From contig JABANP010000006.1 in assembly GCA_013115135.1 (NCBI GenBank), positions 1 through 64,000 on the forward strand: a stretch of DNA of 64,000 nt, in the 5' to 3' direction. A program made the position numbers and the translations under genes. Shown here one piece after another: positions 19,750 through 64,000 of the stretch. The notes beneath the pieces were generated by a model. That model was not told the origin of the DNA, made no database searches, and saw only the letters and a program-made list of their open reading frames with translations. Positions within the stretch are counted from its first letter, which is position 1. The number at the start of each line of letters is the position of its first letter. The stretch is from Perkinsus olseni. Taxonomy: Eukaryota > Perkinsozoa > Perkinsida > Perkinsidae.

Positions 19750-19839
19750 GGTGAGAGACGCCAGTTCACAGAATGATAGACCACCTCAATGCCAGTATAA
19801 TACCATAACTTCCCCAAATCACAATAACTAAGACACTGA

Positions 19840-26549: not shown

Positions 26550-26570
26550 GGTGAATTATTCACCGTGAAT
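26550..26570. repeat. 21-nt W-N-rc(W)-W' unit (W=GGTGAAT, N=T)
   Basis: Exact match, intergenic upstream of the P450 gene. Confidence 0.85.
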
Positions 26571-32600: not shown

Positions 32601-34847
32601 TGCTTTGATCATTGCACAGCTGCTGTAAGTGTAATCAATGTTTAGTAGGCCTGAGGGGCAGCTTCGCGGAGGGGCGGGAAGGTAAGACTCATCATACCGT
32701 CACTGCTTCACTCATTCCTGATCTCTCAATTCCACCTCGGCTAGCTGGAGACGAGAAGGCGGGGTACTGTTGGTCGCCGAGTGACAGAGGAAGCCATACT
32801 AATATTAGCTCACCTGTGGACCGTTCATGCGGTACTCAGTTGTCAACCTGCGTGGCAGTTCGTCGAAGTCCATGACGCACATCTCTCAGTCGGGCGACGC
32901 ATACATGGCGAATTGCAAGTCCATGTCTAAAAGAGTGGAAAAAATAGGACGGCGAGCAAGCAAAAACTTGTGAAGCTGAGCATTCTCGCCCAGAAGCCTG
33001 CAACTGTACTGCATTCTCTCACATCTTTCCAGCACATTCTTGCGTTTCCCGTTCTCGGCCGATCATGCGAGCGGGTGACGGCCCGTCACTGACGGGTCAC
33101 CTGTCAGGAGGAGCCCTTGTGTAGCTTTCGTAAAATATTATGGTCAACTTTAAGTGAATATCCCCGAACGGCTTGTAATGTCTTCAGATGCCCTTTTCCG
33201 GTCCCATCTACAATCAGAGAGGTTCTTCTCTAGTGAGTCGGGAATGTTCTCGGAGGGGAGTACCGTTATCGCGTTTCTGCAGTTACTTGGACTTGCGCTC
33301 GCCTCCGAGTCGTCAAATGATATCAGCCTTGGCTCGGTACGATCCCGCGCTGAAGGAAGTGGTTGGACTGCAGAAGCAGATGCATTCTTCCGGCGTACGC
33401 GGTGGCCCCTATCACAGTCTCTATCGGTCTCTTGTGGGTAACCACGCCTTTGCCAAAGGCCCTCTGGCCTTTGTCGTGGATTCGTAACGCGGATACAGTA
33501 CGGCGCGAAATGTACATTTGGTGAGGAGGTGTAGGCCGGGATCGGATCAGCCAGGGTCCGCGGCAGACGTTGGGGATCTCTTCCGTGCGAGAGGTTGAAT
33601 GTTGAAGTGGAAGAGCTCGGATGTCTCTCTCTTAGGTCCATCTTTCCCTGGCAGAGTTCTTCGACCTTTTCCGTGTTGATACATCGTCTATCAGCTTTGT
33701 CGAATTTGCCAAGATTTGTACCAAACAGAAACTAAGAAGTTACACCGGAGCCAACCCGGGCACCTCTGGTGAGAAGGCCTATCTGAAACCTATGGTAGTA
33801 ATTGAAATTAGTCTTCTTGTAGGTCTTGCCGGCATCTGTTGCTCGTTCCTCTCCAACGCCCTGCCCTCCAAGTTACCTTCGAAATTCATGCATTCGTGTC
33901 GAGTCACGCTCCTCGATCGAGAGCTCGGGCATATGAACCCTCGGCTTCAAGGGGCAGATGCTTACACCGGCGTCGCTAGCAACTATCTATGCGGGGCCAT
34001 CAAGGCTGGTGACGAAATGTGAGTGCCCCCACTGTGAGCTTGGGGCTTTCAAAAACGGTGGTCGTGGGAGTGCTTTTGCCTCCTACACGTTTGTGAGGTT
34101 GTTCATGAAGTGCATTCGCTGCCGAGATTTCTCTTTCCTCAGTCGATTGAACATCCGACCCTCCACTTTCAAGCTGCCAGACCCGCTACCACTCGGGCCT
34201 ATTGTTATGGTTTGTACTGGTGCTGGCATTGCTCCCTTCAGGTGAGTATTGCAGCCTAGCCCTTGGCTTTCCTTATTCCAACTCTCAAGGCTGCTGATGT
34301 ACCAGGAAAATTGTCCCTCTCCAGAGCGACTCACCTTCTCCAGCCGAGAGTGTGTTTCAGAGTCTGTCTTCTCATTACAGGGCGATGCTTTCTGAGCTCT
34401 CCACTAGCACACGATGTCACCTAGTTTTCGGTTGCCGGACTCGCGAAGACATCCTGTATGACACCGAGATCGCTGCCTGCGAAAACATCTGCTTCCATCT
34501 GGCTCTATCACGGGAGCCTGGCGTCCCCAAGCGCCATGTTCAGGATGTACGCAAGTGGATGATGATCGATCCATCATTCCCTAGTTCCATGGAACACTCA
34601 GATTTTACGTTCTTCCGACACTCTGCGCGCGGCCCTGCGTGATGCGCTGAATTCGACGGAGACCCCGGGCTTGGTCATGGTCTGTGGTCAAACTGCTATG
34701 TGCAAGGAGGTTCGTGCGTGGCACTCGTCTCCATCGGAAAGAGCGATGCCCGTTCAGGTCCTCGCCACCATTCGCGAAGTTGCCGGGAATGTCTCTATTG
34801 AGAAGCTTCAAAAAGACCATCGGATTATCGTTGAATTCTTTGGGTAA
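29637..34847 (+). CDS. NADPH-cytochrome P450 reductase-type diflavin protein, many exons
   Basis: Passes electrons from NADPH via FAD and FMN to P450s. FMN domain: ATSQTGTAEAFAIQFG (about 30.18 kb, the SQTGTAE phosphate loop), VCDLADFDPAVF, LATTGEGDATDNA, SGVHYCIFGLGDLNYIQFNG, GIGDDCQDIEEDFRKW. Connecting/FAD part: TADTIEVLPANSQEDVEYF, PFPVPSTIREVLL, GVASNYLCGAIKAGDEM. NADPH domain: VNIRPSTFKLPDPLPLGPIV then MVCTGAGIAPFR, CHLVFGCRTREDILYDTEI, VMVCGQTAMCKEVR and the C-terminal FFG. A stretch at 32.1-32.6 kb appears to insert a repetitive segment. Introns at 30816-30921 carry a tRNA-like T-arm; two 21-nt units lie at 32286 and 33075 and a third near-exact one at 33446. First exon and start are the least certain part. 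Confidence 0.82.
30816..30921 (+). other. reductase intron with sense tRNA-like T-arm
   Basis: GTGAGGTAC...TTCCTCAG; contains TTCTGGGTTCGACTCCGGA at about 30882-30900. Removal joins AVKMLER to GIGDDCQDIEED in frame. Confidence 0.75.
32170..32232. repeat. 21-bp tandem repeat, three copies
   Basis: Units start at 32170, 32191 and 32212 with CGTGCCCTCCTGATG. Seven-codon period, so it can stay in frame; in the plus frame it reads CPPDAEP-like repeats within the reductase gene. Confidence 0.85.
32286..32306. repeat. 21-nt W-N-rc(W)-W' unit (W=CTCCCTA, N=G)
   Basis: Exact match inside the reductase locus, 54 bases after the 21-bp tandem repeat. Confidence 0.85.
32541..32598. repeat. imperfect 19-20-bp tandem repeat, three copies
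   Basis: CTCTCAGAGGGGCATTGT is repeated with changes as CTCTCAGAGGTGCCTTGT and ATCACAGAGGCGCATTGG. Confidence 0.65.
33075..33095. repeat. 21-nt W-N-rc(W)-W' unit (W=GTGACGG, N=C)
   Basis: Exact match, inside the reductase locus just before the PFPVPSTIRE exon. Confidence 0.85.
33446..33466. repeat. 21-nt unit with one mismatch (W=GCCTTTG, N=C)
   Basis: Final hexamer CCTCTG instead of CCTTTG; reductase locus. Confidence 0.7.
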
Positions 34848-36064: not shown

Positions 36065-36539
36065 CGTGACAGTGACAGTGAACATCTTATTACTAATGTC
36101 CCTATTTTTTCAAGAACTTGTAGTCGTGTTATGAAAGTGAGGTTCTTGTGCCATGAAAGTTGTGTCTGCGTGTTAAGTCCAGTGAACGCGAGAATGTGTC
36201 TCTTACGAAGGTGCGCAGATTGACACACCGGAATAATTACTGGCCGTGCTATAACTCAACTCATAAGAGCGATAGTATCGCTGCGATACACCCATTTCTC
36301 ACATCACCAGAATCAACGCCCGCGCGATCTTCCGATCGAGGCCTCATCCTCATCACATCATCATACGAGTATCTTCGTACCTTAAGCGATCGACAGTCTG
36401 CCTGTTGACCACAGACACAACCCAACACACGACGAGGAGGCACTAAGCTGTTCTGTCCCGTCATTGTGTATTAGCGTCTCCATTATCTCCTCAGCATCAT
36501 CGCTCACTCACTCACTTCCCCTTCTTTATTCCGGCCACT

Positions 36540-41940: not shown

Positions 41941-43845
41941 TGACCCGAAAAAACGGCCTGTCTGCCGCTCTTCTGCCAATCATGAGTCACTCATGTCACT
42001 TATGTCTGGTGTAATGCTACCACATCATCGACGATTATCGTCGATGTTTACGAAGAGTTGCTGCCTGTTAGCCCTTTGGCAGCTGTTATCAGATTTAGAT
42101 TTTCTTCTACTCAAGCTAAGTTTTTATGAATATTCAGTTGCCACAACTGGTGTTGTCACACCATTTCCGATGAGGGCGATGGCCCTTGGTGTAGCAAAGG
42201 GCCGCCAAGGCCTTGCCTGTAGGTACGTAGCGGGGTAGTGTTGCATGATGATGTTTAGAGAATGGTATTCTCAGTATGGCCTCATATATTTCCGTTGGCC
42301 GCCACTGGCTGTAGTGTCTGTACCTTTTCACGCATAAACGAAGCTTTCTTCGCTCATTCCCTCAGTACTGTGTTGAAGATCAGCGCGTGTTTCCGGTTGC
42401 TCAGCAGTCGACGATTCCTGCCGAAGCTGGAATCTTCGACCACGGGTAGCAACTAACGTGAGGTAGAATAGAGTTTCCATACATTCCGGTGTTCACTCGT
42501 CAATCGGCAATTCCGGTGGCGTGCTGTTTCCCTGCGATGACGTGTGGGTCGCACCGAAGAACCGGTCAGTTTCTTTGCGAGCTCGACTCGCCCTCCACGA
42601 ATAAACCGAGGCTTCGGGGAGCATTCTCTACACTATTCGAGGCACGACTTCGACACTGCTGTTAGCTGTTGCGAAACAGGCTGCCATTCAGAGATGGTGT
42701 GAGAATGTACTCAGGCACCCACCTGGCCCTCAAGTTACCGCGGTGCGTTGGGTATTGTTACTGCTACCATCTCAGATCCTCAAGTTAGTCGAGTTTTTCT
42801 ACCCTCACGTCCCCAGACTGTGGGGCCCAGAGCCAGAGGCTTTCCCGCTCTGGGATGTAATACTCTGTTTATCGAGTGTTCATGTCAATGTCGAGTTGTT
42901 CGATACTACTGAGTTGGTGAGAGAATCTCCCTCATCGAGGAATCGACAACTTCCATGGTGGGAACGACGGAAGCTATACAAGTGGAGAAGTGGGCTATAC
43001 AATAATTATACAATGATTACTGGATTTTACAATAAGTGGACTATGAACTTACACCCACGAGTTCGAGATTTGACAGTGTTCGCGCGTAGTCTCGTGATGA
43101 TTGCTCAGGGTTTCAGATAGTTTGAGGAACAACGATCTTGAATGTTCATTCCACAGTATCACACCGATTATCCGCCCGCACTGGAGGTTGCTTCCCGCTT
43201 TTCACCAGTCTCCTTCTCTGTTCTTTTCGGCTTTCTACCCTACTCACAAAACAAAACCCGTCTAATACCAATCGATAATCACAGGCAGACTAACAGTAGG
43301 GGAAACTTGAAAGTAATGTAACAGAGTGGCGGTGGTAAAATGTGCAGCTTCACACTATCAGCCCAGCAGCGACGGTCTCTCCTCTGTCACGCAATACGAC
43401 CCTTGACAGACTCGTCGCCTTGGCGAGTGACCCTTTGTGAGCTGAGCAAAGATGATGGACGAGTAAATCAACGATATCATCCTACCTATCGGGTCGGTAC
43501 AGATCGGATGCTGTAGCGTCAGCTCTACCGTGCAACAATCACCCTTGGTCAGACACCTAGAATGAAAACAGCATCACATGAACGATCATCAAGCCTTTCG
43601 ACATTCCCAGAGAATTCGGAACTCAAAATCGATCTTGGAAGTTCCAAGTTGGAACTGATTTTTATGCGCAAAATTCCATTCCAGAATCGATTCTGGATCT
43701 CAGAATTCGTTCATTGAACGCCCCCGCAGTGACTGATGGTGTCGTGATATCGGGGAGACATCTTCACAGGGTGTGAGGCATCGGCAATCAAGGTAACAAA
43801 GTAAAACCCCCTTTCAGACTATCCACTCGTAAACTAGGGCAGAGC
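41941..43845. other. region without a recognised gene
   Basis: One open frame (42743-43120, +, about 125 residues, WERRKLYKWRSGLYNNY) matches nothing known and overlaps the dispersed repeat of 38.8 kb. AT-rich GGAATT-type sequence lies at 43610-43720. Confidence 0.35.
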
Positions 43846-46800
43846 TTACTTGATAGGTCTCGGTCGAACGCCCGGTGGAGGAGCCTTCTTCGCCTCCAGC
43901 GCTATGAATCGCGTTACCGTCGCAGACTCCACGCACGCATGCGCATACAGCATGACCTGGAGGTTGCCATCACCCAGAAAACGCAGTCGATGCATATTCT
44001 CTTTTCTCACCTGCTGACCCTTGACGATCGGAACGGACGTGTCGAAGACGACAATCTTGGCTCGGATGACACTGGAGACTCGGCAAGCAGTAGCATTGTT
44101 GGCGCAGAGCACGGAGCCTCTAGCTACCATATAGGGGTCCACACCTACCAAGGGCAATCCCATCCAGGAACTAAGGTCGGATCGCTCTCTCATACACCGC
44201 GCACGATCAAGAAGGGACCCTTCGTTCGCCCCGGCGTTCAAAGCACGGAATGCAGGAATAAGGAATCCCTGCGAGAAGATCAGTCCAATCACCTTGTAAG
44301 GTCGCCAGGTCGATGTAGTCCCCCGGGCAGCCCTCAGCATTCACGCCCATCTGAACATCCTCACCATTACGATACCTAAAAAAGGAGACGCAAGTGACCT
44401 CGTCACGTTGCTATCGTAAAGCCCTAGTCAACAGCTGACGTTCACGATCTCCGAAGTTCCGAAGTTCTCTTGAACTTTCATGGAGGCCGAAAAACAAAAT
44501 CTTGCGCGCAAGAGTTGAAATGCTACATACCATAAAAGGAGCAAATCGTCTTCCAGCGTGAACGAATACGTTCATGTTATTCATCACCGAAAGCTCATCG
44601 TCGAAAGCAATCTAGCTGCTACCATCTGATACGAGGCAGAAAGGTATCCGCATGGGGATACAGCCTATAGTACAGAATCTATACTGTGCGCCGTTGTTCA
44701 TGACAAGCTAACTAGGATACCATCACCAGTGGCGATTCGCCACCAGCAAGGACCTACACATTCTTGATTGTGCATGCGCTTGAGTCGTCCCCTCGCCCAG
44801 GAAGAACAACAACTTTTTGTCCACTCTTGAACATCCCCTGCTCCACACGACCAGATATCTGAGTCACCACGGCAGCAATCGACTCCGACCTCTTTCGTAT
44901 CCTGCCAGGTTCAACCTCGGATATCCTCACCTGAGCCCCACTGCTAGATTTGTATACATCTGCCACTGCTATTCTCAAAGGTGCTGAGAGCGAAGCCTTT
45001 GTAGCTGCACCGTCCATGGCCGCCGATTCAGCAAGCTTATCGATGGCCGTCACCAACGTGTCACCTGTCACCACTCTTATCATGACCACGAGGGCGTCAA
45101 TGGCTTTATACAGATAATAAATATATAATTTCGTTTGAATACTACGCGAAAGAGATTACGAATGAATCCGAGAGATCGCAGAGTCTCACGACTATGATGA
45201 ATGGGAGAGCGATGATGATGACCATCTCGTTTCATTGTTCATTACTGCATCTTTAGTGGATTACATAGGAATATTGTAATGAATACAGCAGCGAGAAGAA
45301 AAACATCAGGACCACCATCGCAGTGTAAACTTTGCAACTAAGTAACCAAACACATTAAAACAAATCATAGGACGAGTGTGCTATGGGAGAGGGTGGAAAA
45401 AGCGTATCAGTGAAATAGACGAAGACTCCTGTGGCGAGTAGTAAACTTATAAGTCTCGTAATGAAGGTATCCCTCGATCTTCCAGGGTAACAACAAACTG
45501 CCCCAAGCTATACTTACCCGCCCACCACGCGTTCAACTTTGGATTCTCTCGTTTAACCAAATTCTCCCCCACAAATCCCGCGGTAGGTAACTGACAATTT
45601 AGGCGTTAACATACCCAATTCTCAACAAAAACGACCGCTGAAAGACCACATCGCTCTCGCGAGCTCGGGCGCAAACCAGTGAAGACGCACCGATTCGACT
45701 CGAAAGCGCTCCACGATTCCAAGGGTAAGCCTTAGACAGATCAGACCCATCAATCCCGCCAAAAAATGACCATTTTTGAGGCTCCCGGCTGCATTAACCC
45801 TGGCCGAACGATCATCGGGTGATTCCAGCGATGGTTCGAGTTGCACTACGTAGGTGACATTGTGGCCCTTGAAACCACACTCCCCCTCGATGAACGTCTG
45901 CAGCTCATCGTGGACTCTATCATACCGGTCTTGGGAATAATCTGAAAATGCATAACCTTTGCAGTCAATACACCCCGGGGTTTGATCCTGGGTGAAAGGA
46001 TAATGAACCATGAACTCCACCACCGGACCATATTTCCACGCCCGCAAAAGAAGCCCTTTGGGAGTAGCGAAAAAATTTGGAGCTTCAGCTGAATCATTGA
46101 AGTCATTCCACTCCGATCATCAATATCTCCATCACTCCTACCGCAAACGTTACACGTCTCCCCTCTCCATTCATACTACACCCGATACTACCCACTAAGT
46201 CCATCTTATTAATCGCTACTATAATCTTGGTAATCCCAAGGGCCCTTAGCAATCTGATATGCTCTTTGGTTTGACCTGACAATAATGATCAACTCGTATT
46301 GAAAACAAGACTTGCTTAGGTGACCAAGTTGAATTAAATTGTCTAACAAGTTCAGAGACTCAACTAACTACCACAGCGACTGTTAATCACACTGAGGGTG
46401 ACAGTGTGCCGCTGGACCTCTTCACCGTCCCACGTCTATCCCGTACTTTCCTAGCAGCGAGCCAAGATTCGCTCTTCAAAACGATCGCAGAGAATCGACC
46501 GCAAGGTATTAACGACGGCACTCTGTTGCAGAGCGTCTGGCTGAGCGCAAGACCCTCACGCCACCACAGCAAGGACCCACGACAAGAAGCTGTCCGCTAT
46601 CTTCACGAAAATATGTCAATCTTAAGCCACATGTAGGTCTATAGGGCAGCAGTGACTCCGATGAGATAGAATAATCAGCCAACGTGTCTCGAGCCTGGCT
46701 CCTTCACGATGGGACAATGCTCTCGGTGGAAATTGTATCAATGGATGGGAGGACTCATTAGTAGGAGTGAAGTCAGCCCGCTAATAATACCGTTCCTTGG

Positions 46801-52603: not shown

Positions 52604-54735
52604 CTTCAACTGACTTGCGTCAAACGATAACAATAAGAAAGGCATGAGAGCTCCGCACGTGGGCATCGCAAACAGTCAATCTTCTAAGACGGTGGTCAAA
52701 CCTGCTGCACCCACGCCAAGTACACTCCGGCGAAAAATTAGTCAATTTTGAAAAAATTTTACTATTATTAATGAAATTTTATTGGTCGAAAGATCTATTA
52801 CCTCAATTTTTTTATCCACAGGTATGTCTTTATTCGAACGATAACAGCAGGTTTCATGATTGACGTAATCTTCACTTCAGGGGAGACGAACGCATTCGGT
52901 AACGATAATTCGGTCGCGAAGGCACGATCCATTTCCTCGCCGCCAAGTACCCCCTATGCTGTGCTATGGGGGTACTGTTTCGAAGGCAAATTCAAGCAGG
53001 GCAATGTGAAAAACACCAGACGATAACAATTCCGTTGTTGCTCGTGTGATGTGGCATTAGTGCGGTACTGCCCATCTTCAACATTGGTGCTGCTGTCGTC
53101 GAAGATTGACGATCATGAATCGGCAAGAATAACGAGTTCTCCTCGTCCAAGCCATGGAAGAGCTGTGAGAGGCGATAAAACGCAGATTCAATCGACAATA
53201 ATCCTCCGGGAGGATTACAAATAAATTCTACTGGAAGGAGCTTGGCGAACTTGGCCCTTCAATTCGACCTGATACTGCTGCCAAGGCCATCGAGGGATCA
53301 AATTATCAGAATCGAGAAACGAAAAATTGTCCTATAGCACGAGAAGCCTAGACCTGGTGGCATCTACCGCAAACGCTCTGTACGCAATGACAATCTTGCA
53401 CACTTGCAATTTCTTACCGACCTCGGCGAATCTTCACTCACCGCTCGCCCTAAAATACATGCGAAGTGGCTCAACCCTTCAGAAGCTTCGAATGTCGTTG
53501 AATGCAAGTCATACCATCGATGATGGCTGCGGCTGACTCAGTCAATCTGAGTCAGATCATCTGACTGCCACTGACTGATGATACCAATAACGATTCGGTT
53601 GAGTCACCCGGGGTGACCTTCAATCTCCAAAGTGAGAGTCTCACCAGTGTCAGTTTTACCCACTCTGTTGAGGATATGTATGCTCTGAGGGTCATGGCCT
53701 GGGCCACTGCCACAAATTCGCGTGGTCTCGTCCCTGAAATAAGCAGTTCGATGCCCACCGTGCCGTTTTGACGGCGAAGGTACGCTCTGAGTACGTCTCA
53801 GCAGTGTGGGTTCAGCTCCGGACCCTTTTACTGGTCTTCATGATGATGAAGGCTTCATGATCAATAAAGGGTTTATCTGATGAAGCTCATCACTTTATCG
53901 CAAAAAGTGTGTTCGCGTGTTTCCCCGGTAGTCTCCTGTTCAGCCTTATGACAAGGGCGTTTTAGCTGTTCAACACAGTAACTCAATGGCCAGTGTGATG
54001 ATGAAGTTCATCATTTGGCTGAGCGAATGGGCAGTCATATGGTAAGTGTGTTTTGGATAGGCTGGAATGTACCGGTGATAATGATGAGTTGCTCAGTATA
54101 GCAGACTTCGATGACCATGGTCCCAAGTTCTACACATGGACATGTCATTTTCTTGGGCAAACCCATATATGGAGGTATTACCCTAGAACGAAAAGACCGA
54201 CGAGTGATCTCAGAGCATTTCACGATGAAACGTCCGCGTATTGAAAAAATCCTGGTCGAACGAGCGAAAACGAAAAAAAATAGGAGAAACGCGCACAGTT
54301 TCGTCGGACGAAAATAACTGAGACGAAGTGAACGATGGCTCAAACACTTCGGCACCGAACAAAGCCTGAACGAAACGTTCATGGACGAATCGCGCGACAC
54401 CCATATAAACATACTGTATGAAGTGGAACTGTTCGAGCCTCGAACTTCGAGGTAATGTTGTACGGGCTGAAACAGTTCCAAATTATCCAGTGAGAATTGA
54501 ACTGTACCAAATTGCCTTGTATTTCTTGATACTGTACCGTTGGGCACTGTACTATCTGAAACAGTTTCAGACTGAACTGAACCCGAACTGAAACTTTCAG
54601 TTGTCATCTAATGGTGTGACCAGTACCGAGGAGTTGTGTATCAAAAGTTGTTGTTCGCAAACCTACCTGTACCGCTCACTGAAGCGATGCGAAGTGAACA
54701 GTCAGGATACCTAGTGGTTCCCTTGAGCATTGAAT

Positions 54736-54756
54736 ATCAACAATGTTGATTCAACA
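54736..54756. repeat. 21-nt W-N-rc(W)-W' unit (W=ATCAACA, N=A)
   Basis: Exact match in gene-poor DNA. Confidence 0.85.
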
Positions 54757-55291
54757 TTGAAGGGATAAAGGCCAAAACAGCCAAGTCACAGCCCGACTAG
54801 CGGGTGCCAGTGAGCTGGCTCTTCCGGAGTCCGAGACGACTGGACCGATGTCTGATGTTTTATCGCATCATCCGCAAGACTGGAATGCTATCACTCGTTC
54901 GATCATCGAACTTCCATGTCAGTGTAAGAACTGGGGTATTTTTTCTGGCTCCAGATCGAGGCATTTTCCTTGACTCGAGATATAGCTGCTGATCTCGCAG
55001 AGCGGTCAGTGTGATCCTCGCCCGATATGAACCGTTTACTCATTCTTTGGGTATCGGGCTTGCTGTATACCAACCTTTGGAACTCACTGTCACCTCTCGA
55101 GGTCGTGGGGCACGGCTCTCCTTCTAGCGCCCTGTTTGTGTGTGCATGAGATGTTCGACGAGCGGCTACGTCGACAATCGACACAATCTGTGACATCTAC
55201 GGGTCCCATAGTACGGGGGGAGGCAGCCCGCCCTTTAATCGTGACCCGATCGCGTTAGGGCAAACTTATCTCAGTGCCACTGAGTCAGCGG

Positions 55292-55312
55292 GACTATCGG
55301 ATAGTCACCATC
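55292..55312. repeat. 21-nt unit with one mismatch (W=GACTATC, N=G)
   Basis: Final hexamer ACCATC instead of ACTATC. Confidence 0.7.
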
Positions 55313-57288
55313 TCGCTTTTCAACCTTAGCAATTCACCCACACACACGAGAGTTTGAACGACTCTTGTCCTTCTGGGAGCGATTACGCACTCGTCATCGG
55401 TCGATTACGTCATCGGTTACTCATACGGGCCTCTTGGACAAGTTATGGTTCCGTGATGTGGAGCCGTTGCACGCATGCCCCGATGGGGAGAGTGACCATT
55501 CAACGCAATATGTTCTCACAGAACCAGCTGACGATCCCAAGTTGGATTCCCAACCCAATGGGACTGCTCGGCGATCTCGAGTGCGAATGCGCCAGCGTCG
55601 TAGGTACCAGCATTGAGTACGACAAGGGCTCATACTAAGGCAGCGCGTTTCGTGGAGCTCACGCGTGCTCTTACGCATGTCCAATGTGAAGTATCGGGGT
55701 GGCCTTAGCAGAACCGAAGGAAGGGGGAAGTCGATGTAGACAAGTCTGAGTGGTTCGCCTGGAAGGCCTCAATCCCAAATACTTGGAACTCGAAGTCAGA
55801 GGTGTAGTAGTTGAAAGGTCGGGTTGAAGAGATCAAATATCACGTAGGAGGAGTCCCACAGTGGCAGCAAATGAGCAAACTCGTACTAGAGTCTCTCTCT
55901 CACTCGAAATCTCAGCTTAGGGGCCCACCCAAAAAAATGAAACGGCCGACGGTTATATGTAGACAACTGAGGCGCGCGCCAACTACCGTGCGCGGTCCCC
56001 TCGAACCAGCGGTTCGTCACACCAAACACATGCCCGACGCTAGATAACGCATGACTGCGCAGGATACGTAATCGCCTATAACTTCATAGCCAGAGCGCTT
56101 ATAGCTAGCTGAGGGTAAGAACGAACCGGTAACTTCTCCCATACCTACTGCCCGAATTTCAGTCTCATATCTGCTACGCACTAAGAATAGAGTAACATGA
56201 TACCAAGAATCACGATTTGCTACTACTAGTCCATGGGCCTTGCAGGGTCCGTGGGGTGACTTTCTTCAGCGGATAAACGAGTAGTTTATCTGGGTTAAAA
56301 CCGGCGCGGAGAGACGCCGTGTTATGTTGTGCGCACAGCGGGACACCTAGTGTCCCGACTGCGCCTCCCACGCTAGCAAGCTAGTACGCCGACTACCGGC
56401 TTGAGTTATCAGGTGCTTGCTAACGGCTCGGAAGTCGAGCGTCGTCCTCTTGACGCTCTCTCTTTTTTTTAACCGAGGTCTTCGAGAGGCAACTTGTGCC
56501 TGCCGAACCGCGATCGCCACTTGCAGCATCGCCTTCGGCCTCGGCACAGTTTGCCTTCGCGTTTCCCTCGCTGCCGTCGTGAGGTCCCGTCGACCTTTCC
56601 GACGCTGGCTTGGTACCGCGCCTTGCCCCATCCCGGAGACCAGAGGTTTTAGCGCTCACCCGGGGGCCCCAACCTCCCTGAGCGCGAAAGAGCGCCTTCG
56701 GCGTACACTTAAGCTTTTGGCAAAGCAAGTTCGCGGCCAAAGCAAGTTCGCGCCTGCACCCAGAGCGATTTTTCTGGAAGAACGTCTCTCATCTCCGAAT
56801 TTTGTACGACAACCAACATGAGCACTGCGCGCTGAGTAGACTCCTAGTGGTCGCGTGAAATGCCAGAGGCCGCGGAGAGCAAACCGCTTAACACAGCTGA
56901 GAAGCTGCGCGCCAGCGCACACTAGCGTTGGCTTGCTCTGGGGACACGCTTATCTCCGCAGCGAATGATGCTTCCTCCTCCGTCCAAGCTCATAACGCGC
57001 CAAGTATAAGATGTATTCTTCAATATTTAGAGTGTTGTATTCTGATAGGTATCCGCTCAACATAGTGGTGAAAAGAAGGGCTGAAAAAAGTATCAGTATC
57101 AATAAATCAATGGTGACCTTGTCTAACGGGGCAAGAGAACAGAGGAGACAGATGCAACCAAGTAACGCAATACTCTACCATTAATTGCCCATCACGCATG
57201 CCATCACCATCATACCAACATAATAGTAACTGTTGAGGCTACACGGAATCACGTCGTGGTGTACTTTTGTTGATGTGTGCGTTACTAT

Positions 57289-57309
57289 GGCCCCTCAGGG
57301 GCCGCCCCT
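57289..57309. repeat. 21-nt W-N-rc(W)-W' unit (W=GGCCCCT, N=C)
   Basis: Exact match in duplication copy 1. Copy 2 (62198) reads ATGTCCCCTGTGC with no insertion, so this site shows the empty and filled states. Confidence 0.92.
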
Positions 57310-57339
57310 GTGCTAGGCTAGCACGCAATCATAGCTAGA

Positions 57340-57360
57340 GTCTGCTAAGCAGACTCTGCT
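57340..57360. repeat. 21-nt W-N-rc(W)-W' unit (W=GTCTGCT, N=A)
   Basis: Exact match in copy 1; copy 2 (about 62236) reads GGAGTCTGCTTCCGACG without the extra 14 bases. Confidence 0.92.
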
Positions 57361-57711
57361 TCCGACGTCACGTCGGTTGTATCCGTTGATATCCACTGAT
57401 TTTCTACCATAGATATCCTCATCCTATCTTACAAATACAGTAACTGTCGGGTTCGAGCTTCTACGCACCCTGCGCGCTCGGGTCTCATCATCAATTATCG
57501 ATTTTCGATTCGCTAAACCTGTAAAACAGTGGCGCCAGGTCCGTGCGTGCGAGTTGGCCCGACATCGAGACACGGTCGATTCGCGCATAGCTGTAAAGCG
57601 GCAAAACGCTCAAGATATATCTATTTTTGCTTTGAATCGGGTAGCTTCGAGTTGTGTGACATCCACATTGTGAATATGCACGGATGTGGGTCAACCTCGG
57701 TTGCCTGCTCG

Positions 57712-57732
57712 CTGGTAAATTACCAGCGGTAA
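57712..57732. repeat. 21-nt unit with one mismatch (W=CTGGTAA, N=A)
   Basis: Final hexamer CGGTAA instead of TGGTAA; copy 1, upstream of the secreted-protein gene. Confidence 0.75.
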
Positions 57733-57805
57733 TCATTCGGGAATGTAGGTTCTCGCCTGTATTGGTTCGCTGATTTGGCTACCGAGCTCAGCTTACTGAA
57801 TGAAC

Positions 57806-58195
57806 ATGAAGTCCCCCTTCCTTGTGACAACCTTGCTCGCCGTTTCTGTAGCCGTTGTCATCCAAAACGATGAGTCCGCGACCAAGGATGTGAAGGAATT
57901 CATCGCCAACCACGTTACGCTGGAGGACGTCGTAAGGAACCACTACAAGTTCAGAGATGACTCCGTCGTAAACAGCGCTCAAGCTCATGTTGCCGGTCGC
58001 TCGCTGTTGCCTTTTGAGCGCTCCGGTTGCGAGGTATGCACCTGGTACCGTTTTGACACCAATGGGATTCGGACTTGTTTAGCTAAATGCACTGGCTTCA
58101 GTGCTGGTCAAGGTGTCGGTGGCGGTTCCTTTAGGAGAAGCCTGACAGAGGGCACAACTGCAGATGCCGTGATGGCCGATGGCGCGGATGATTAA
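57806..58195 (+). CDS. small secreted Cys protein, paralogue A
   Basis: 129 residues, one exon. Signal peptide MKSPFLVTTLLAVSVAVVIQ; mature part with NHYKFRDDSVVNSAQAH, CEVCTWYRFDTNGIRTC, KCTGFSAGQGVGGGSFRRSL and an acidic end ADGADD. Start at 57806 rather than 57800 because the paralogue at 62728 aligns from there. Four Cys, a Gly-rich loop and no known family. The N-terminal third is more diverged between paralogues than the VVNSAQAH...SFRRSL part. Lies in segmental duplication copy 1. Confidence 0.78.
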   Translation: MKSPFLVTTLLAVSVAVVIQNDESATKDVKEFIANHVTLEDVVRNHYKFRDDSVVNSAQAHVAGRSLLPFERSGCEVCTWYRFDTNGIRTCLAKCTGFSAGQGVGGGSFRRSLTEGTTADAVMADGADD

Positions 58196-58359
58196 CTTGG
58201 CTGTTATGGCACCGCCTCCTTGCGGTGGATTATACTATGGTTACTAAAGCCTGTGATGTCTCTACGTTGGGTGCTGTAACTATATAGTGACCAGGTCAAG
58301 GGTCTGCGCGCAGGCGAATCATTTTCTTTTTGTTATATACTTAATTGGTACATAACCAG

Positions 58360-58640
58360 TTAGGTAATCCGTATTCATTCAGATGCAGTGGACAATTCTG
58401 TACCTCTCCGTTGTGCGTGCAATCACGTAGGGAGAGCCCGCTCATCCGGACTCTGCTGTGACCAGCCGCACGCTCACTACGATCGCCAGTCTACACTGAA
58501 CTGCTTTCTCAGCAAAGGAGTAGTTCTCGCGTTGGATCAGTCGGGGCCCTCGACTCGGGGGCTCGCTGCAAGTACTATACGGATGGCGGATAGTGAGTCC
58601 GGAGCACGATATTTCGATAAGTTGGTACCGCTTAGTCGTG
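58360..58640. repeat. downstream block, copy A of three
   Basis: Begins GTAATCCGTATTCATTCA and shares CAATTCTGTACCTCTCCG, the TCACTACGAT...CAGTCTA segment and TTTCGATA...GTTGGT with 59830-60115 and 63310-63590. It follows each secreted-protein gene; the middle copy has lost the gene. Confidence 0.8.
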
Positions 58641-59522
58641 GTGGCGTGAGCTGAAGTCCGCGACGGTCCGGGACTTCGGCAAGACCCTCGAATGAGGCTC
58701 ATTCATCGGCCGATTGTCCCCCTCAGGGTTAAGAAGTTTCTAGTAACTTCCAACTTGCGTTGGCTTTTGAACGATAGATACCCACGAATCGCAAAAAGGG
58801 CCAACAAGAAACGGCCTGTGAGAGACTCAGCAGCTGGCTCCCGCTGATGCCGCTGCGATTCACGAGGAGGTCTTACTGAGGTAAATCCCGCAGGGTTTTA
58901 TCGACGGTGAAACCGGCACGAAAGGGGACAATATTTGTGGAGTGAATCCATATTTCTGAGGAGTTTTCCGGTATCCTGAGGATGGCTTTGGAGCTCGCCC
59001 GACACTACTAACACCTTACACTGCGCGGCCTTCGAGTTTTTGGTGAAGGACCTGAGTCGGGTTTCGGGTTGACGGGGGTTACGGTCCGCACTCCACTAGG
59101 TCTCGGTCAACTCTTTTAAACCGTAACAGCCTTACATCCGAGCTACGAACACGCCCATTCTACTGCCGTGCGAACTCACAATACTTCAATCCAAGGCGGG
59201 CGAAATACCATTCCTCACGATTCTACTTTTTTCCTCAGAGAACCGACTTTACTCATATTTGTGTGCTAGCAACATTGGCTAGAGCGCTAGCCAGGACGGA
59301 TTCACCTTCTCGTGATACTGACCGTTGTCAGGGTGTAAGATCCTAGTACTGTCGCGGTACTACCGCGGTATATCTTCCTCGACGAAAGGAAGGCGGTTCT
59401 GCTAAACGCGTGAACCCAAGCCACCTTTCGTTTGTCAGTTCGTCATCATGTTTTCTTGGTAACGATTTGAGCGACCCTGCAGCCTCTGCGCGAGTCGATC
59501 AATTTGTCTTCAAGAATCTTGA

Positions 59523-59555
59523 CCGCATTATCTTGAATCAAGATAATGCAGTCAT
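59523..59555. repeat. 12-bp perfect inverted repeat with 1-base loop
   Basis: GCATTATCTTGA, one A, then TCAAGATAATGC. It lacks the third hexamer of the 21-nt units. Confidence 0.75.
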
Positions 59556-59689
59556 AGCCGCAGGACTCCCGGTGGCTGGTCTGCGCCTCGCCATAGAGGA
59601 CGTCGTCATCACCCCTAGTCCCCTCTCTTTTCGTCTAGGACCCCAATCTGAGCGGCTCTGCAGTCTTTGCGTGAGCAGATCAATCCCAC

Positions 59690-59726
59690 CCTACCCACTA
59701 ACCGAGAGTCTCGGTTAGTGGGTAGG
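59690..59726. repeat. 37-bp palindrome, 18-bp arms and one-base loop
   Basis: Left arm 59690-59707 (CCTACCCACTAACCGAGA), single G at 59708, perfect complementary arm 59709-59726. Same one-base centre as the 21-nt units but longer arms and no third copy. Confidence 0.9.
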
Positions 59727-59811
59727 TCCGAGACTACGGGTGAGCCTGGACCTACCCCAATATCCGGGTGTAGGTCCTCGCTGGGCTGGCCGCTACACGC
59801 GTACGGGTTGT

Positions 59812-59832
59812 GTACCCGCTGTGGCACAGCGG
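59812..59832. repeat. 10-bp inverted repeat with one-base loop
   Basis: ACCCGCTGTG, G, CACAGCGGGT, sited exactly where the middle duplicate block begins. Confidence 0.75.
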
Positions 59833-59955
59833 GTAGTCCGTATTCATTCAAATGCAGTAGACAATTCTGCACCCCTCCGGTGTGCGTGCTACCACGTAGG
59901 CGGAGCCTGCTCAGCAGGACTCTGCTGTGGCCAGCCGCATGCTCACTACGATAGC

Positions 59956-59976
59956 CTGTTTAGTAAACAGTGTTTA
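59956..59976. repeat. 21-nt W-N-rc(W)-W' unit (W=CTGTTTA, N=G)
   Basis: Exact. Copies A and C read CAGTCTA directly followed by the next homologous bases, i.e. unfilled. Confidence 0.9.
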
Positions 59977-60033
59977 CTCTGTATTGCTGTTTCAATCAAC
60001 TTGGTTGGACCAAGGAACTGTTCTCGCGCTAGG

Positions 60034-60054
60034 TCAGTCAATGACTGACAGTCA
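60034..60054. repeat. 21-nt W-N-rc(W)-W' unit (W=TCAGTCA, N=A)
   Basis: Exact match in copy B only. Confidence 0.88.
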
Positions 60055-60151
60055 TGGGACAAACGCTATACGGGCGGAGAACAGGGGCTCCGGATCTCGA
60101 TACTTCGATACGTTGGTGTCGTTTGGTTGTAGTAGGCGGCGCGGACATAAG

Positions 60152-60172
60152 GTCCGCGACGCGGACTCCGCG
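60152..60172. repeat. 21-nt W-N-rc(W)-W' unit (W=GTCCGCG, N=A)
   Basis: Exact match in copy B; copy A has AAGTCCGCGACGG without it. Confidence 0.88.
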
Positions 60173-60287
60173 TAGGTCTGAGGCCTTCGGCAAGGCCCTT
60201 GAATAACGCATTGAATGAGCATTCGCGATGCGTCGCCAAATTCGCAGCAGGACGAAAACAAGTAGTGACTCCTCAGGAGTCTAGCGC

Positions 60288-60308
60288 AATGATTCAATCA
60301 TTATGATT
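60288..60308. repeat. 21-nt W-N-rc(W)-W' unit (W=AATGATT, N=C)
   Basis: Exact match. A plain 7-1-7 palindrome (GACTCCT, C, AGGAGTC) lies 21 bases upstream at 60267-60281. Confidence 0.88.
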
Positions 60309-60592
60309 CGCGTTCTCTATTCCAGGATAATAGTTTACTCGGGATATTGGCGTCAGCACTCTGAATTATCGACAAGCAAGGAGCTGCCGAGGAACTACCG
60401 GACGGAATACTGTGCAATAGAGTTCGAGCAGTCGAGATGGAACAGCCAGTCTAACCCCATAGGGATAAGGATGTGATTCTTGCTGGTCTGACTGTATGCC
60501 AAACACCGCATGGGGCTGGTTCTGGGAACAAGCCAGACCGGAGGCCTCTTCTCAATGGCACTGATCCTCCTCGCCCAGCGGCCTCCCGCAGC

Positions 60593-60613
60593 CTCCGGGT
60601 CCCGGAGTCCGGG
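60593..60613. repeat. 21-nt W-N-rc(W)-W' unit (W=CTCCGGG, N=T)
   Basis: Exact match in unannotated DNA. Confidence 0.88.
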
Positions 60614-61058
60614 AGAGCAGGGAGTTCCGCCATGAAAGTACCTCGTTCCGAGTCGCCGAGCGCCGGTCACTCCTAATAATCGAAGCACAAGATGTCTGGT
60701 GACATCAGACTGATGTTGACTACACCGTGTAGTATATTTATCTGGCAAGTCTTCGTCCCTGAGTATGTTTAAGTCACGTCCGTTACAGAGTATGCAACTC
60801 AGTATTTGGCAAGTTCCGTGTCATGTGTATGCGTACCACTGCCATGATTGTGGCTGACCGATTCGCTCACCGGTGTCTGACGGACACCGTGTAGCGTTCG
60901 GTGCTTGCCCAGGTTCATGATAGGGCCGCTGCTGATTACCCAAACTTCGCAGGTATGGTTGGAGACTCGCTAACTAAGTACCGGTTACGTAGTAGGCGCG
61001 TTTAGTTACGAGGCGGAGACAAATTGTCTCAGACAATAGCACAATTGCGTCCGCTCAG

Positions 61059-61079
61059 CTCGGCGGCGCCGAGTCGGCG
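61059..61079. repeat. 21-nt W-N-rc(W)-W' unit (W=CTCGGCG, N=G)
   Basis: Exact match in unannotated DNA, 22 bases after a plain 7-1-7 palindrome at 61023-61037. Confidence 0.88.
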
Positions 61080-61488
61080 CTTCGCGAGCTGGGTAGCAAA
61101 GTGGTGCAACCGTTCTGTGGTTGGCCAGTGCACATCGTCAGGTTTCTATATCTCATAGCCTATTCGTTATACCGACTGTGGTTCCATCGAAAGCCACAGA
61201 TCATGTATGAAAGACGGCACTACTGTACCTAGCTAACCAACGATTGCGCGCGCTGGGTACGACTTCTGCCACTGGACTGATGAGCCAGACCAATCTGGCG
61301 CAAGCTTTTGGTAGTTTGGGGTAACCATCGACAAACTATAGACATCTGTAACCATCAGACATCTGACTTACAGTGGTCACGGTTTCGCGCAATTCCTTGG
61401 ATAAACGCGCTGCCTCCAATATCGTTAGAAACGGCTCGTTTTCGAAGATTTGCACGGTTTCGAGAATAACACCTTTTCTCGTGATATT

Positions 61489-61563
61489 CCCGCGATATTC
61501 TCGCAAACCTGCCATGCTCCCTATGCTCTTTCTCGTTCTCTCTCGTGAGAAGAGAATATCGCG
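61489..61563. repeat. separated 12-bp inverted repeat CGCGATATTCTC
   Basis: CGCGATATTCTC near 61491 and GAGAATATCGCG near 61552, about 50 bases apart, with CTCGTGATATTCCCG next to the first arm. Confidence 0.6.
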
Positions 61564-61630
61564 AGACCCATCCTTCTCGAGACTCGCATGCCGGGGTATG
61601 GCCATACTGTCACAGTACTACAGTCGCGGG

Positions 61631-61651
61631 AAGCTAAGTTAGCTTAGCTAA
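61631..61651. repeat. 21-nt W-N-rc(W)-W' unit (W=AAGCTAA, N=G)
   Basis: Exact match, a few bases before duplication copy 2 begins. Confidence 0.88.
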
Positions 61652-61959
61652 CCCTGAACGATTTTTTCTGCAAGAACGTCTCTCATCTCCGAATGTTGTA
61701 CGACACCGAGCATGAGCATGGCGCACTGAGCAGATTCCCAGCGCTCGCGTGAAGTGTCAGAGGCCGCGGAGCGTGCCGCTTAGCGCAGCTGAGAAGCTGC
61801 GCGCTTCACTAGCGTTGGCTTGCTCTGGGCACATGCTGCTCTCAGCAGCGGATGACGAGGAGCTTCCTCCTCCGTCTAAGCTCGCAACGCGCCAAGTATA
61901 AGATGTTGCTATTTAGAGCGTTGCATTCTGATAGGTATCCGCTCAACATAATGGTGAAA

Positions 61960-61980
61960 TGAAGGAGTCCTTCAGAAGGA
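61960..61980. repeat. 21-nt W-N-rc(W)-W' unit (W=TGAAGGA, N=G)
   Basis: Exact match in copy 2; copy 1 (about 57073) reads AAAGAAGGGCTGAAA without the 14 extra bases. Confidence 0.9.
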
Positions 61981-62727
61981 CCGAAAGAAACTTGATGGTG
62001 AGAAAGATACAGAGCAGTCAGAGCAGTGGCGACCTTATCTAACGGGGCGAGAGAGCAGAGGAGATGCATGCAACAAAGTGACGCAAAATACTTGATCATT
62101 AATCAGCCATCATGCATGCCTTCACCATCATACCAACATAATAGTAAGCTACGCGGAATCACGTCGTGGTTAACTTTCGTTGATGTGTTCGTTACTATGT
62201 CCCCTGTGCTAGGCTAGCACGCAATCATGGCTGGAGTCTGCTTCCGACGTCACGTCGGTTGTATCCCTTGCTATCCCGTGATTCTCTCTATAGATGTCCT
62301 CATCCTATAGTTACTGTATCATCAATACAGTAACTGCTGGCTTAGAGGCGCTACACATCCTGTATACTCTGGGCTGATATTCTAGTATTACTTTTCTACT
62401 CGTTAAACCCGTAGGACCGGTGCAACTGCCTCTCCATTGTTACGACAAGTGGTGCTAAGTTCGTGCGTGCGAGTTGGCCCGATCAGCGAGACATGATTGA
62501 TTTCTGCATAGCTGAAAAACAGCCGAAGTTTGAGGTATATACCTCTTTTGCCTTGCATGATGGAAGTTGCGTCGGGTAGAGTCGAGTTGTGTGGCATTCA
62601 CGTTGCGGATGTGCATGGATGCGGGACAACGTCGATTGCCAGCTCGGTGGGAATTAGTCAGAGCAGTGAGGGTCTAGCCTGTCCTGGTTCGGCGGGCTCG
62701 CTATTGCGCTCAGCTTGTTGTATCCGC

Positions 62728-63126
62728 ATGAAGTTCTCCTCCGTTGTGCCAACCTTAATCACTGTTTCTGTCGCCATCGTTATTCAGAACGATGAATCCG
62801 CGGTCAATGATGTGGGAGAGCTCAACGCCAGCCACATTGCGCAGGATTACGCCGTGGGGAACCACTACAAGTTCAGTGATGAATCCGTCGTAAACAGCGC
62901 TCAAGCTCATGCCGCCGGTCGCTCGCTATACGCTCTTGACGACTCCGGTTGCGCGGTATGTACCTGGTACATTATTGAAACCAATGGGATGCGGACTTGT
63001 TTGGCTTACGAGAACAAGTGCACAGGCTTCAGTGCCGGTCGAGGTGTCGGTGGCGGCTCCTTTAGGAGGAGCCTGACGGAGGCCGCCTTTGCAGATGCTG
63101 TGATGACCGACGGTGTGGATGATTAA
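62728..63126 (+). CDS. small secreted Cys protein, paralogue B
   Basis: 132 residues, one exon. Signal peptide MKFSSVVPTLITVSVAIVIQ, then NHYKFSDESVVNSAQAHAAG, CAVCTWYIIETNGMRTC, KCTGFSAGRGVGGGSFRRSL and an acidic end. It has a three-residue insertion (YEN) before KCTG relative to paralogue A; the four Cys are conserved. The frame stays open upstream to 62530, but homology starts at 62728. Function unknown. Confidence 0.78.
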   Translation: MKFSSVVPTLITVSVAIVIQNDESAVNDVGELNASHIAQDYAVGNHYKFSDESVVNSAQAHAAGRSLYALDDSGCAVCTWYIIETNGMRTCLAYENKCTGFSAGRGVGGGSFRRSLTEAAFADAVMTDGVDD

Positions 63127-63140
63127 CTTGGCTGTGATGA

Positions 63141-63161
63141 CACCGCCAGGCGGTGACCGCC
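63141..63161. repeat. 21-nt W-N-rc(W)-W' unit (W=CACCGCC, N=A)
   Basis: Exact match, 15 bases after the stop of paralogue B; copy 1 reads GGCACCGCCTCCTTGC here with no insertion. Confidence 0.93.
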
Positions 63162-63408
63162 TCCTTGCTGTAAATCACACTATGGTTATCAAAGCCTGTG
63201 ATATCTCTAACTTGGGTGTTGTAACTATATAGTGACCAGGTCAAGGGCCTGCGCACAGGCGCATCATTTTCTTCTTGTCATGTTCTTCAGTGGCACATAA
63301 CCAGTTAGGTAGTCCGTATTCATTCAAATGCAGTGGACAATTCTGTACCTCTCCGTCGTGCGTGCTATCACATAGTCAGCTCAGCTTGACTCTGTTGTGG
63401 CCAGCCAC

Positions 63409-63429
63409 GTGCCCAGTGGGCACTGCCCA
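63409..63429. repeat. 21-nt W-N-rc(W)-W' unit (W=GTGCCCA, N=G)
   Basis: Exact match in copy C; copies A and B read ACGCTCACTACG and ATGCTCACTACG, unfilled. Confidence 0.92.
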
Positions 63430-63553
63430 CTACGATCGCCAGTCTATACTGTACTGTTTGCTCAACCGAGGAAGCGTTCTCGCGTTACAAACGCGACTGA
63501 CCTAACAGTCGCGAAGCAAGGGCTATATGGATGGTGGATAGTGTGGCTAGAGC

Positions 63554-63574
63554 TTTCGATTATCGAAAACCGAT
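63554..63574. repeat. 21-nt unit with two mismatches (W=TTTCGAT, N=T)
   Basis: Final hexamer ACCGAT instead of TTCGAT. Copies A (ATTTCGATAAGTTGG) and B (CTTCGATACGTTGG) lack exactly these 14 bases. Confidence 0.8.
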
Positions 63575-63590
63575 AGGTTGGTGTCTCTTC

Positions 63591-64000
63591 GTTGAGGTAA
63601 GCCGCGAAGGACCGGGGCCCGGTCACCGGGCCCACGAGTGAGGCGCGTTCCGCGGCATCGGAACAAGCCTAGGGCGGGCAGCGTGATGAAGCCGTGCGCA
63701 CGCTCCCGACGAAAACACGACAATAATAAAGGGAGCCGATACTGAATTACTGTTGTGAACAAAACTGTCACCATCAGCCCAGAGACGCGATGGCTTCCGC
63801 CACGACAACGTCTTCAGCGATCCAGTATGAAGTATCGCCCCAGGTTGCCCCCACGGCACGGGGACGCACCTGACTGGAAGGTCGGTAGTAGAGGCCGATG
63901 TCCTCGGGGACAATGCTGTAGCGTCGGCCCGACGCCGTCGGGGCCATTCTGATTCAGAATTTCTGAATCGACCCAATATGAGAGACTCTCTGGAGTTGAC
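63591..64000. other. end of window, no gene recognised
   Basis: Contains GCCCGGT-C-ACCGGGC (63619-63633) and a 9-bp inverted repeat with a one-base loop (GATTCAGAA, T, TTCTGAATC, about 63951-63969). No family recognised. Confidence 0.4.

Follow-up and report, generated by a model that had tools for sequence, protein, structure and literature searches.

Judged from its sequence, each of the short 22-nt units described here is very probably the repair scar of an excised hAT-type DNA transposon whose insertion had duplicated 8 bp of target sequence (X), and many thousands of such scars, most of them of a single form, seem to be present in the Perkinsus genome. The unit is strand-symmetric and is built entirely from one octamer, X = w1..w8, in the order X[1-7] rc(X) X[2-8]. 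The support for its origin in hAT excision comes from this geometry, from the net gain of 14 nt in relation to empty sites, from a hAT-like target preference, and from the presence in this genome of hAT elements flanked by 8-bp duplications.

The unit was initially annotated in the window, i.e., the whole 64,000-nt stretch of Perkinsus olseni DNA analyzed here, as a 21-nt form with a 7-1-7-6 layout (w1..w7, one free base, the reverse complement of w1..w7, and then w2..w7), with 17 exact copies and four near-matches, all of which were recovered as claimed. The pattern scan in fact returned 28 exact copies on the + strand, while five Markov shuffles of the window returned none, and 57289-63574 is only the densest part of a distribution that extends outside it (Table 1). 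The - strand likewise has 28 exact copies, 27 of which are the same objects as those of the + strand, the strand-specific exceptions being 60288 (+ only) and a copy at 53545 (- only). When the arm was varied from 4 to 10 and the loop from 0 to 5, the combination 7/1 stood out as the sharp peak that had been anticipated, given that the 28 matches at 6/3 and 28 of the 32 at 5/5 begin at the 7/1 units themselves. The middle base, on the other hand, is not free, as had been supposed, but is the complement of the base following the tail (w8) in 27 of the 28 units, with the exception of 60288.

Similar results were obtained in a 263-kb sample of the genome, where 100 perfect units were found against none in the shuffles, and units with 0, 1, 2, and 3 mismatches number 100, 70, 81, and 137, versus 0, 0.1, 1.6, and 25 in shuffles. 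A crude extrapolation gives approximately 19,000-26,000 perfect scars genome-wide, and no units were found in 50 kb of E. coli K-12. When the octamer length was varied from 5 to 12 and the offset from 0 to 3, length 8 with offset 1 (the 100 units) was by far the largest long class, followed by 10/3 with seven matches (five of them overlapping a length-8 unit), 8/3 with two, and 9/3 with one, whereas the short classes 6/3 and 5/2 reached 103 and 83, with 60 each in the shuffle. The 6-nt stagger, filled to duplicate w2-w7, that was first proposed is rejected, as the duplicated block is the 8 bp of X.

The absence of a conserved motif holds, given that the 100 units contain 97 distinct X, and a tandem or dispersed repeat family was rejected on the same grounds. 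A functional DNA or RNA hairpin element under selection would account for the strong inverted symmetry, but its probability is negligible, as the sequence differs nearly everywhere, the copies decay, and their presence or absence varies between paralogues and even between homologous contigs that are approximately 95% identical, where three of the five fully covered sites are empty on C940.

The comparison of related copies shows how a unit arises. All 38 of the distinct 14-nt inserts found between related copies, from approximately 32 sites, are the unit within three mismatches, whereas inserts of 13 and 15 nt number only two and three, and those of 6, 7, and 8 nt number eight, six, and four, respectively. 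The partner copies have X in place at these sites, either plain or with point changes, and each unit is thus an insertion of 14 nt derived from the octamer at its own site.

Table 1. Positions of the units and related features in the window; "additional" marks the eleven exact copies beyond the 17 first annotated.
Feature	X	Positions	Observation
Unit	GTAATTCA	5585..5606	exact; additional
Unit	CTTCGCAG	5917..5938	exact; additional
Unit	ATCCAAGA	8588..8609	exact; additional
Unit	CCAACCAC	17824..17845	exact
Decayed unit		18530..18551	1 mismatch
Unit	GGTGAATA	26550..26571	exact
Unit	GCAGCGAG	31748..31769	exact; additional
Decayed unit		31987..32008	1 mismatch
Decayed unit		32268..32289	1 mismatch
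Unit	CTCCCTAC	32286..32307	exact
Unit	GTGACGGG	33075..33096	exact
Decayed unit		33446..33467	1 mismatch
Unit	AGCGATAC	36268..36289	exact; additional
Decayed unit		42811..42832	1 mismatch
Unit	CTTGGAAC	43634..43655	exact; additional
Decayed unit		44722..44743	1 mismatch
Decayed unit		53544..53565	1 mismatch; exact 7-1-7-6 on - strand only
Decayed unit		53596..53617	1 mismatch
Unit	GTTCGAGG	54431..54452	exact; additional
Unit	ATCAACAT	54736..54757	exact
Decayed unit		54897..54918	1 mismatch
Decayed unit		55270..55291	1 mismatch
Decayed unit		55292..55313	2 mismatches over 22 nt
Unit	GGCCCCTG	57289..57310	exact; paralogue at 62.2 kb without 14-nt insert
Unit	GTCTGCTT	57340..57361	exact; empty site: plain X in paralogue at 62.2 kb
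Decayed unit	CTGGTAAT	57712..57733	1 mismatch; C11 without insert
Decayed unit		58540..58561	1 mismatch
26-nt insert		59702..59727	reads as longer-foldback scar variant (one base unexplained); C510 without insert
Unit	CTGTTTAC	59956..59977	exact
Unit	TCAGTCAT	60034..60055	exact
Unit	GTCCGCGT	60152..60173	exact
Unit		60288..60309	one pivot base changed (exception to 8th-base rule); exact 7-1-7-6 on + strand only
Unit	CTCCGGGA	60593..60614	exact
Decayed unit		60695..60716	1 mismatch
Unit	GAGACAAT	61016..61037	exact; additional
Unit	CTCGGCGC	61059..61080	exact
Unit	AAGCTAAC	61631..61652	exact
Unit	TGAAGGAC	61960..61981	exact; empty site: plain X in C11
Decayed unit	CTTGCATC	62552..62573	2 mismatches; C510 without insert
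Unit	CACCGCCT	63141..63162	exact; empty sites: plain X in C11 and another copy
Unit	GTGCCCAC	63409..63430	exact; C750 without insert
Decayed unit	TTTCGATA	63554..63575	2 mismatches; plain X in C11
Unit	GACCGGGC	63610..63631	exact; additional; empty site: plain X in C750
Unit	GCGTCGGG	63921..63942	exact; additional; empty site: plain X in C11
Unit	ATTCTGAA	63946..63967	exact; additional; empty site: plain X in C750

In the proposed mechanism, the starting state would be X - transposon - X, and the transposase would place a nick in the non-transferred strand of each flank, one base in, and link this strand to its opposite at the border of the transposon, which would leave each flank hairpin-ended, with w1..w7 w8' w7'..w1' on the left and w8'..w2' w1 w2..w8 on the right. 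The opening of these hairpins 8 nt or more from the tip would give the left flank a 3' tail of rc(X) and the right flank a 3' tail of X, and the two would be complementary over exactly 8 nt because both flanks carry the same X. Annealing of the tails, followed by gap filling, the trimming of longer tails, and ligation, would yield X[1-7] rc(X) X[2-8], leaving the site 14 nt longer than before the insertion and free of transposon sequence. With a duplication of constant length (8 bp) and a constant offset of 1, the geometry would be fixed while the sequence varies. This model retains from the initial annotation the enzyme-made, staggered and hairpin-ended break, in which a duplicated part is combined with a folded-back part, while the length of the duplicated block is replaced. 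The single base is the complement of w8, the position expected for it if a hAT-type enzyme cuts the flank one base in.

The scars contain flank sequence only, in the form of P-nucleotides whose center, in 27 of the 28 units in the window, is complementary to the base that would have adjoined the element. When the products are written as w1..w7, left P(a), right P(b), and w2..w8, there are 100 cases with a+b=8, and the remaining cells with a+b of at least 3 sum to 44, versus approximately 7 in shuffles (the cells are not exclusive). Shorter P-nucleotide scars do exist as a minority, the classes with a+b of 3-4 summing to 27 against approximately 6 in shuffles. Products without P-nucleotides are indistinguishable from ordinary tandem hexamers, which number 244 versus 58.7 in shuffles and, after the removal of simple repeats, occupy 100 places versus 37-61, with 23 in 50 kb of E. 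coli. No claim is made for simple +6 footprints of this type, given that the tandem hexamers exceed the shuffles but not the E. coli control.

Within the hAT excision model, it is possible, if rather unlikely, that the transposase or a partner cuts each hairpin precisely where the duplication ends, 8 nt from the tip, and that the clean 8-nt sticky ends are simply ligated, with no random opening, annealing, or trimming. The uniformity of the products, with 100 at a+b=8 and few others, is consistent with this, as is the finding that the 263-kb scan contained no exact class of 11-30 foldback bases, whereas the shorter a+b classes, the longer variant at 59702, and the one 10-base foldback found in that scan suggest that the place of opening varies, and the dominant form is already predicted by annealing through X alone. 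A more far-reaching version, in which Perkinsus would have a dedicated and possibly domesticated hAT-derived excision-and-rejoining system, with hairpins opened exactly at the duplication edge to give 8-nt sticky ends and excision routinely sealed as a stereotyped +14 scar, used tens of thousands of times and perhaps purging insertions, is a long shot.

Formally, the same product may also arise with no transposon, through polymerase template switching, in which the fork copies w1..w7, jumps strand at w8, goes back to w1, and returns at w2. This would also fit the variant at 59702 and the two length-10/offset-3 matches that do not overlap a length-8 unit, but fixed lengths are not expected from this process, yet one length and offset dominates, and X has a hAT-like target motif, so that template switching is extremely improbable.

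This motif was found in the octamers themselves, given that T2 and A7 occur together in 31 of the 130 strand-collapsed X, versus 7.6 expected (P approximately 2e-11), and in 16 of the 254 flanking octamers. Available excerpts on Hermes and hobo give 8-bp target duplications with the pattern nTnnnnAn (PMC2803484, PMC10368747, PMC11226609); the likeness lies in the length and the preference, although those data refer to insertion sites, whereas the Perkinsus X are read from scars and show the preference only in part.

The scars might alternatively derive from another superfamily with long target duplications, such as Mutator-like elements, whose matches outnumber those of hAT (38 for PF10551, 32 of them over the cut-off) and which would accord with a multi-copy element of 315 bp in the window that has a 9-bp duplication. 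A 9-bp duplication would be expected to produce scars of length 9, but the 263-kb sample has none with offset 0-2 and one with offset 3; hairpins on the flanks are described, in the accessible part of the source, for hAT elements and V(D)J recombination (PMC6900584), and the motif of X fits hAT. Given this, a Mutator-like origin is very unlikely.

The hAT excision reading is accompanied by elements of this type in the genome, where a profile search located PF05699 matches at 21 places, with none in 14 control genomes, together with six PF14291 matches. Elements with perfect 8-bp duplications, for which element-free counterparts exist, are found on C941 (TAGGGCTT), with an open 668-aa frame containing Dimer_Tnp_hAT and DUF4371, and on C816 (CCTGATTC), and there is an 8-bp duplication on C209 (GTCCGGAG). 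Exact TAGAGATGGGCA ends number 35, versus five for the reversed-pattern control, and at C206:42977 a foldback of CTGTCCCC adjoins a hAT-type terminus, while an element-free paralogue has plain CTGTCCCC. A scan for TIRs with 8-bp duplications returned three candidates (L010, L030, and L045), of which L010 is taken as an element, with L021 as its duplicate (one mismatch), and L030 may belong to a larger inverted repeat; a looser TIR scan added a further candidate, L008 974-2853 (GTCTGATG), with hAT-like ends around a PF05699 match. As a separate observation, a search for Ku (PF02735), directed at a possible lack of classical end joining, gave one weak partial match of 28.3 bits.

The flanks of 12 TAGAGATGGGCA ends were searched for element and scar pairs, with 41 matches (40 of 110 candidates being scored). 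No scar was found at the junction in the 14 element-free counterparts read, i.e., ten of six hAT-type TAGAGATGGGCA ends and four of two young hAT elements, and no locus among them has element and scar as alternatives. The distal-flank search located the far end for one of these six ends, that of the L009 element, which is truncated and has no matching duplication. Searches with 53500-64000 of the window and C1:1-10000 (39 candidates scored each) showed no element-sized gaps at units. A further point against the hAT scar is that the perfect scars, in their crudely extrapolated number, far exceed the hAT copies seen, whether counted by profile matches or by exact TAGAGATGGGCA ends.

The initial annotation knew of no described element of this form, but the P-nucleotide excision footprint of hAT transposons is a described process. 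While this kind of footprint is already known, the dominance of one full-duplication form, in approximately 19,000-26,000 copies by crude extrapolation, appears to be new, and a literature search of partial coverage found no title dealing with this unit or with Perkinsus hAT footprints. If the hAT reading is correct, past hAT excisions may be counted from sequence symmetry alone, without the transposon, and each scar would keep a record of its own target octamer, providing a fossil record of cut-and-paste activity. The scars would also allow hairpin-end repair in an alveolate to be studied in a large natural sample. As +14 changes that shift the reading frame and are often polymorphic, they would in addition be a class of variation that shapes the Perkinsus genome, and the question arises of why one P-nucleotide product dominates there.

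V(D)J coding joints carry P nucleotides, and the off-center opening of their hairpins leaves palindromic additions. The coding ends share no duplication, so that a fixed full-length fold-back is not expected. The likeness to the Perkinsus scars lies in these additions and in the hairpin on flanking DNA, which the available part of PMC6900584 gives for both RAG and Hermes. Another hairpin-forming system is Kat1, a domesticated hAT transposase that makes hairpin-capped breaks; it acts at one locus, in mating-type switching by gene conversion, and the accessible part of its description mentions no such scars (PMC4763223).

Finally, a close likeness is found in the Ac/Ds footprints of yeast, plants, and Candida albicans, which, in the excerpts at hand, involve microhomology-assisted joining with no transposon sequence remaining (PMC5873905, PMC1978519, PMC4561436) and a pivot base complementary to the one that adjoins the transposon (PMC5873905). 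The same excerpts report 28 types among 128 footprints in C. albicans (PMC5873905), arms of up to 20 nt in S. cerevisiae (PMC5873905, PMC1978519, PMC4561436), and, in one Arabidopsis line at one site, 11 identical footprints out of 17, with a very short product (PMC1978519). These differences count against the hAT scar, given that the published Ac/Ds products, as far as these excerpts go, are mixed or, where one dominates, short, whereas in Perkinsus the foldback of the full 8-bp duplication is the main P-nucleotide form, genome-wide.

The 17 exact and four near copies of the initial annotation were all confirmed in the window, where the exact form, made up of a heptamer W, one base, the reverse complement of W, and bases 2-7 of W (7-1-7-6), occurs 28 times on the + strand, versus none in five shuffled controls. 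The − strand also yields 28, of which 27 are the same objects. The middle base, which had been described as variable, is not free, given that it is the complement of the base following the tail in 27 of the 28 copies, and the unit is thus strand-symmetric. The 7-1-7-6 layout stands except at the end of the tail, where a seventh base had been overlooked, and the unit may be restated as X[1-7] rc(X) X[2-8], in which X is an octamer, w1 to w8, and the total is 22 nt. The only exact copy to break this rule and the two other scars of its kind (Table) give the impression that the other hairpin strand was the one retained.

A 263-kb sample, formed by the window and 20 stretches (five of them picked because they contained earlier matches), contains 100 perfect units, and 97 different X occur among them. 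The stretches come from contig starts and do not constitute a random sample. When lengths of 5-12 were scanned at offsets of 0-3, the other long classes were represented by seven 24-nt matches at 10/3, two at 8/3 and one at 9/3, while the short classes 6/3 and 5/2 reached 103 and 83, against 60 each in the shuffle. Five of the 10/3 matches overlap a length-8 unit, and a chance match of two outer bases would be enough to create them; the other two overlap none. Units with one, two and three mismatches add 70, 81 and 137 (0.1, 1.6 and 25 in shuffles), which we read as decay.

In the 15 stretches that were not picked for matches, 46 units occur over 150 kb; scaled to the genome (61,483,535 bases in 968 contigs), this gives about 19,000 units, or about 26,000 if the density of the window itself is applied. 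In the window, density peaks at 52-64 kb, a region that is partly multi-copy. No perfect unit was found in four long ORFs (7.4 kb in all); an 888-aa protein encoded in the window has its best match in a Perkinsus olseni protein (98% identity), and we regard the source as that species or one very close to it.

Related copies in the sequence covered by this comparison were aligned (70-99.5% identity, at least 150 nt, no second gap nearby) and their isolated indels were collected. After the removal of duplicates, 38 distinct 14-nt inserts remained, at about 32 sites by our own count, as some are variants of one site, and all 38 are the unit within three mismatches. Other lengths were scarcer, with two inserts of 13 nt, three of 15, eight of 6, six of 7 and four of 8. 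The insert-free partners carry X at the site, either unchanged or with point changes. For example, the copy at 57340 reads GTCTGCT.AAGCAGAC.TCTGCTT, and its paralogue at 62.2 kb reads GTCTGCTT; contig C940, which is homologous to contig C1, is empty at three of the five unit sites that it fully covers. These empty-site comparisons show that insertions of 14 nt, each formed out of its own octamer, have recurred and account for the unit.

Table. Individual features of the window, and one interval of contig C1 (stretch L028)
Position	Size	Strand	Feature
40267-41550	427 aa		ORF with RNase H domain, which we take to be perhaps a piece of a non-LTR retrotransposon
53545		−	Exact 7-1-7-6 on this strand only
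55685-56021	~337 bp		Multi-copy insertion; contigs without it align across with a 4-nt overlap, resembling a short target duplication
56265-56647	~383 bp		Multi-copy insertion; as preceding
56758-58533 and 61651-63486			Diverged segmental duplication (~74% identity); more copies on contigs C510, C11 and C750
58940-59254	315 bp		Element flanked by the 9-bp direct repeat ATATTTGTG; ends GAGTGAA/GAGTAAA; missing from C510, matched on other contigs; possibly a non-autonomous Mutator-like element
59702	26 nt		Insert that reads as a fold-back running further before rejoining
60288-60309		+	Exact 7-1-7-6 on this strand only; sole exact copy violating the eighth-base rule; on the opposite strand, one of three scars in 263 kb with w1 in place of its complement (w1') at the pivot
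L028 831-1744	914 bp		Missing from the homologous contig C940; no target duplication

This form may be derived from the excision of a hAT element inserted at X and thereby bordered by X on either side. Hairpin formation would then give a left strand w1..w7 w8'..w1' and a right strand w8'..w2' w1..w8, and the opening of both hairpins 8 nt or more away from their tips would expose the complementary tails rc(X) and X, whose joining should yield exactly X[1-7] rc(X) X[2-8]. From a duplication length of 8 and an offset of 1, the 7-1-7-6 layout would follow, as would the seventh tail base. In a grid of products by left (a) and right (b) P-nucleotide length, whose cells are not exclusive, a+b=8 gives 100 matches, and the other cells with a+b of at least 3 sum to 44 by our own addition, where shuffles give about 7. 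Scars with fewer P-nucleotides are thus present, as a minority class. One base on each side (a=b=1) is at chance level (3 versus 5.3). Products lacking P-nucleotides altogether (a=b=0; 244 versus 58.7, or 100 places versus 37-61 in shuffles once simple repeats are removed) were dropped as a footprint class, because any tandem hexamer qualifies and 50 kb of E. coli contains 23. Annealing across the whole duplication would in principle suffice to make one product dominant; precise hairpin opening is a rival and less likely version of the same model.

The excision of hAT elements is very probably the source of the scars. Among 130 strand-collapsed octamers from all the sequence covered at this step, 31 have T2 and A7 jointly (7.6 expected), against 16 of 254 flanking octamers, and these positions match nTnnnnAn, the target pattern of hAT elements. 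The genome has 21 matches to the hAT dimerisation domain. An element on contig C941, with an open 668-aa frame containing Dimer_Tnp_hAT and DUF4371, is flanked by the perfect duplication TAGGGCTT; a relative on C816 has CCTGATTC, and a third element, on C209, has GTCCGGAG. At C206:42977 (stretch L018), CTGTCCA GGGGACAC TGTCCCC stands just before a hAT-type end, and the element-free paralogue has a plain octamer and reads CTGTCCCC. This single case is an octamer fold-back immediately adjoining a hAT-type end, and it could represent an aborted excision or a re-insertion; PMC11226609 describes a hobo insertion whose target duplication is involved in a short triplication.

None of the four element-free counterparts of the C941 and C816 elements (two each) carries a scar, one of them having point changes within X, and the scar is absent from all 14 element-free counterparts examined, out of many more matches. 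At no locus was one copy found to hold the element and another the scar. Compared with the hAT copies that can be seen, the scars are more numerous by orders of magnitude. Such an excess calls for excision over a long period, for non-autonomous elements that have escaped recognition, or for a different agent whose duplication is 8 bp long. Matches to MULE elements outnumber those to hAT (38, of which 32 are above the cut-off), but length-9 units are almost missing.

Finally, returning to hAT excision, the literature, as covered in part through titles and the openings of abstracts, yielded no genome with a stereotyped full-duplication footprint in such numbers. The hAT P-nucleotide footprint is already known as a kind.
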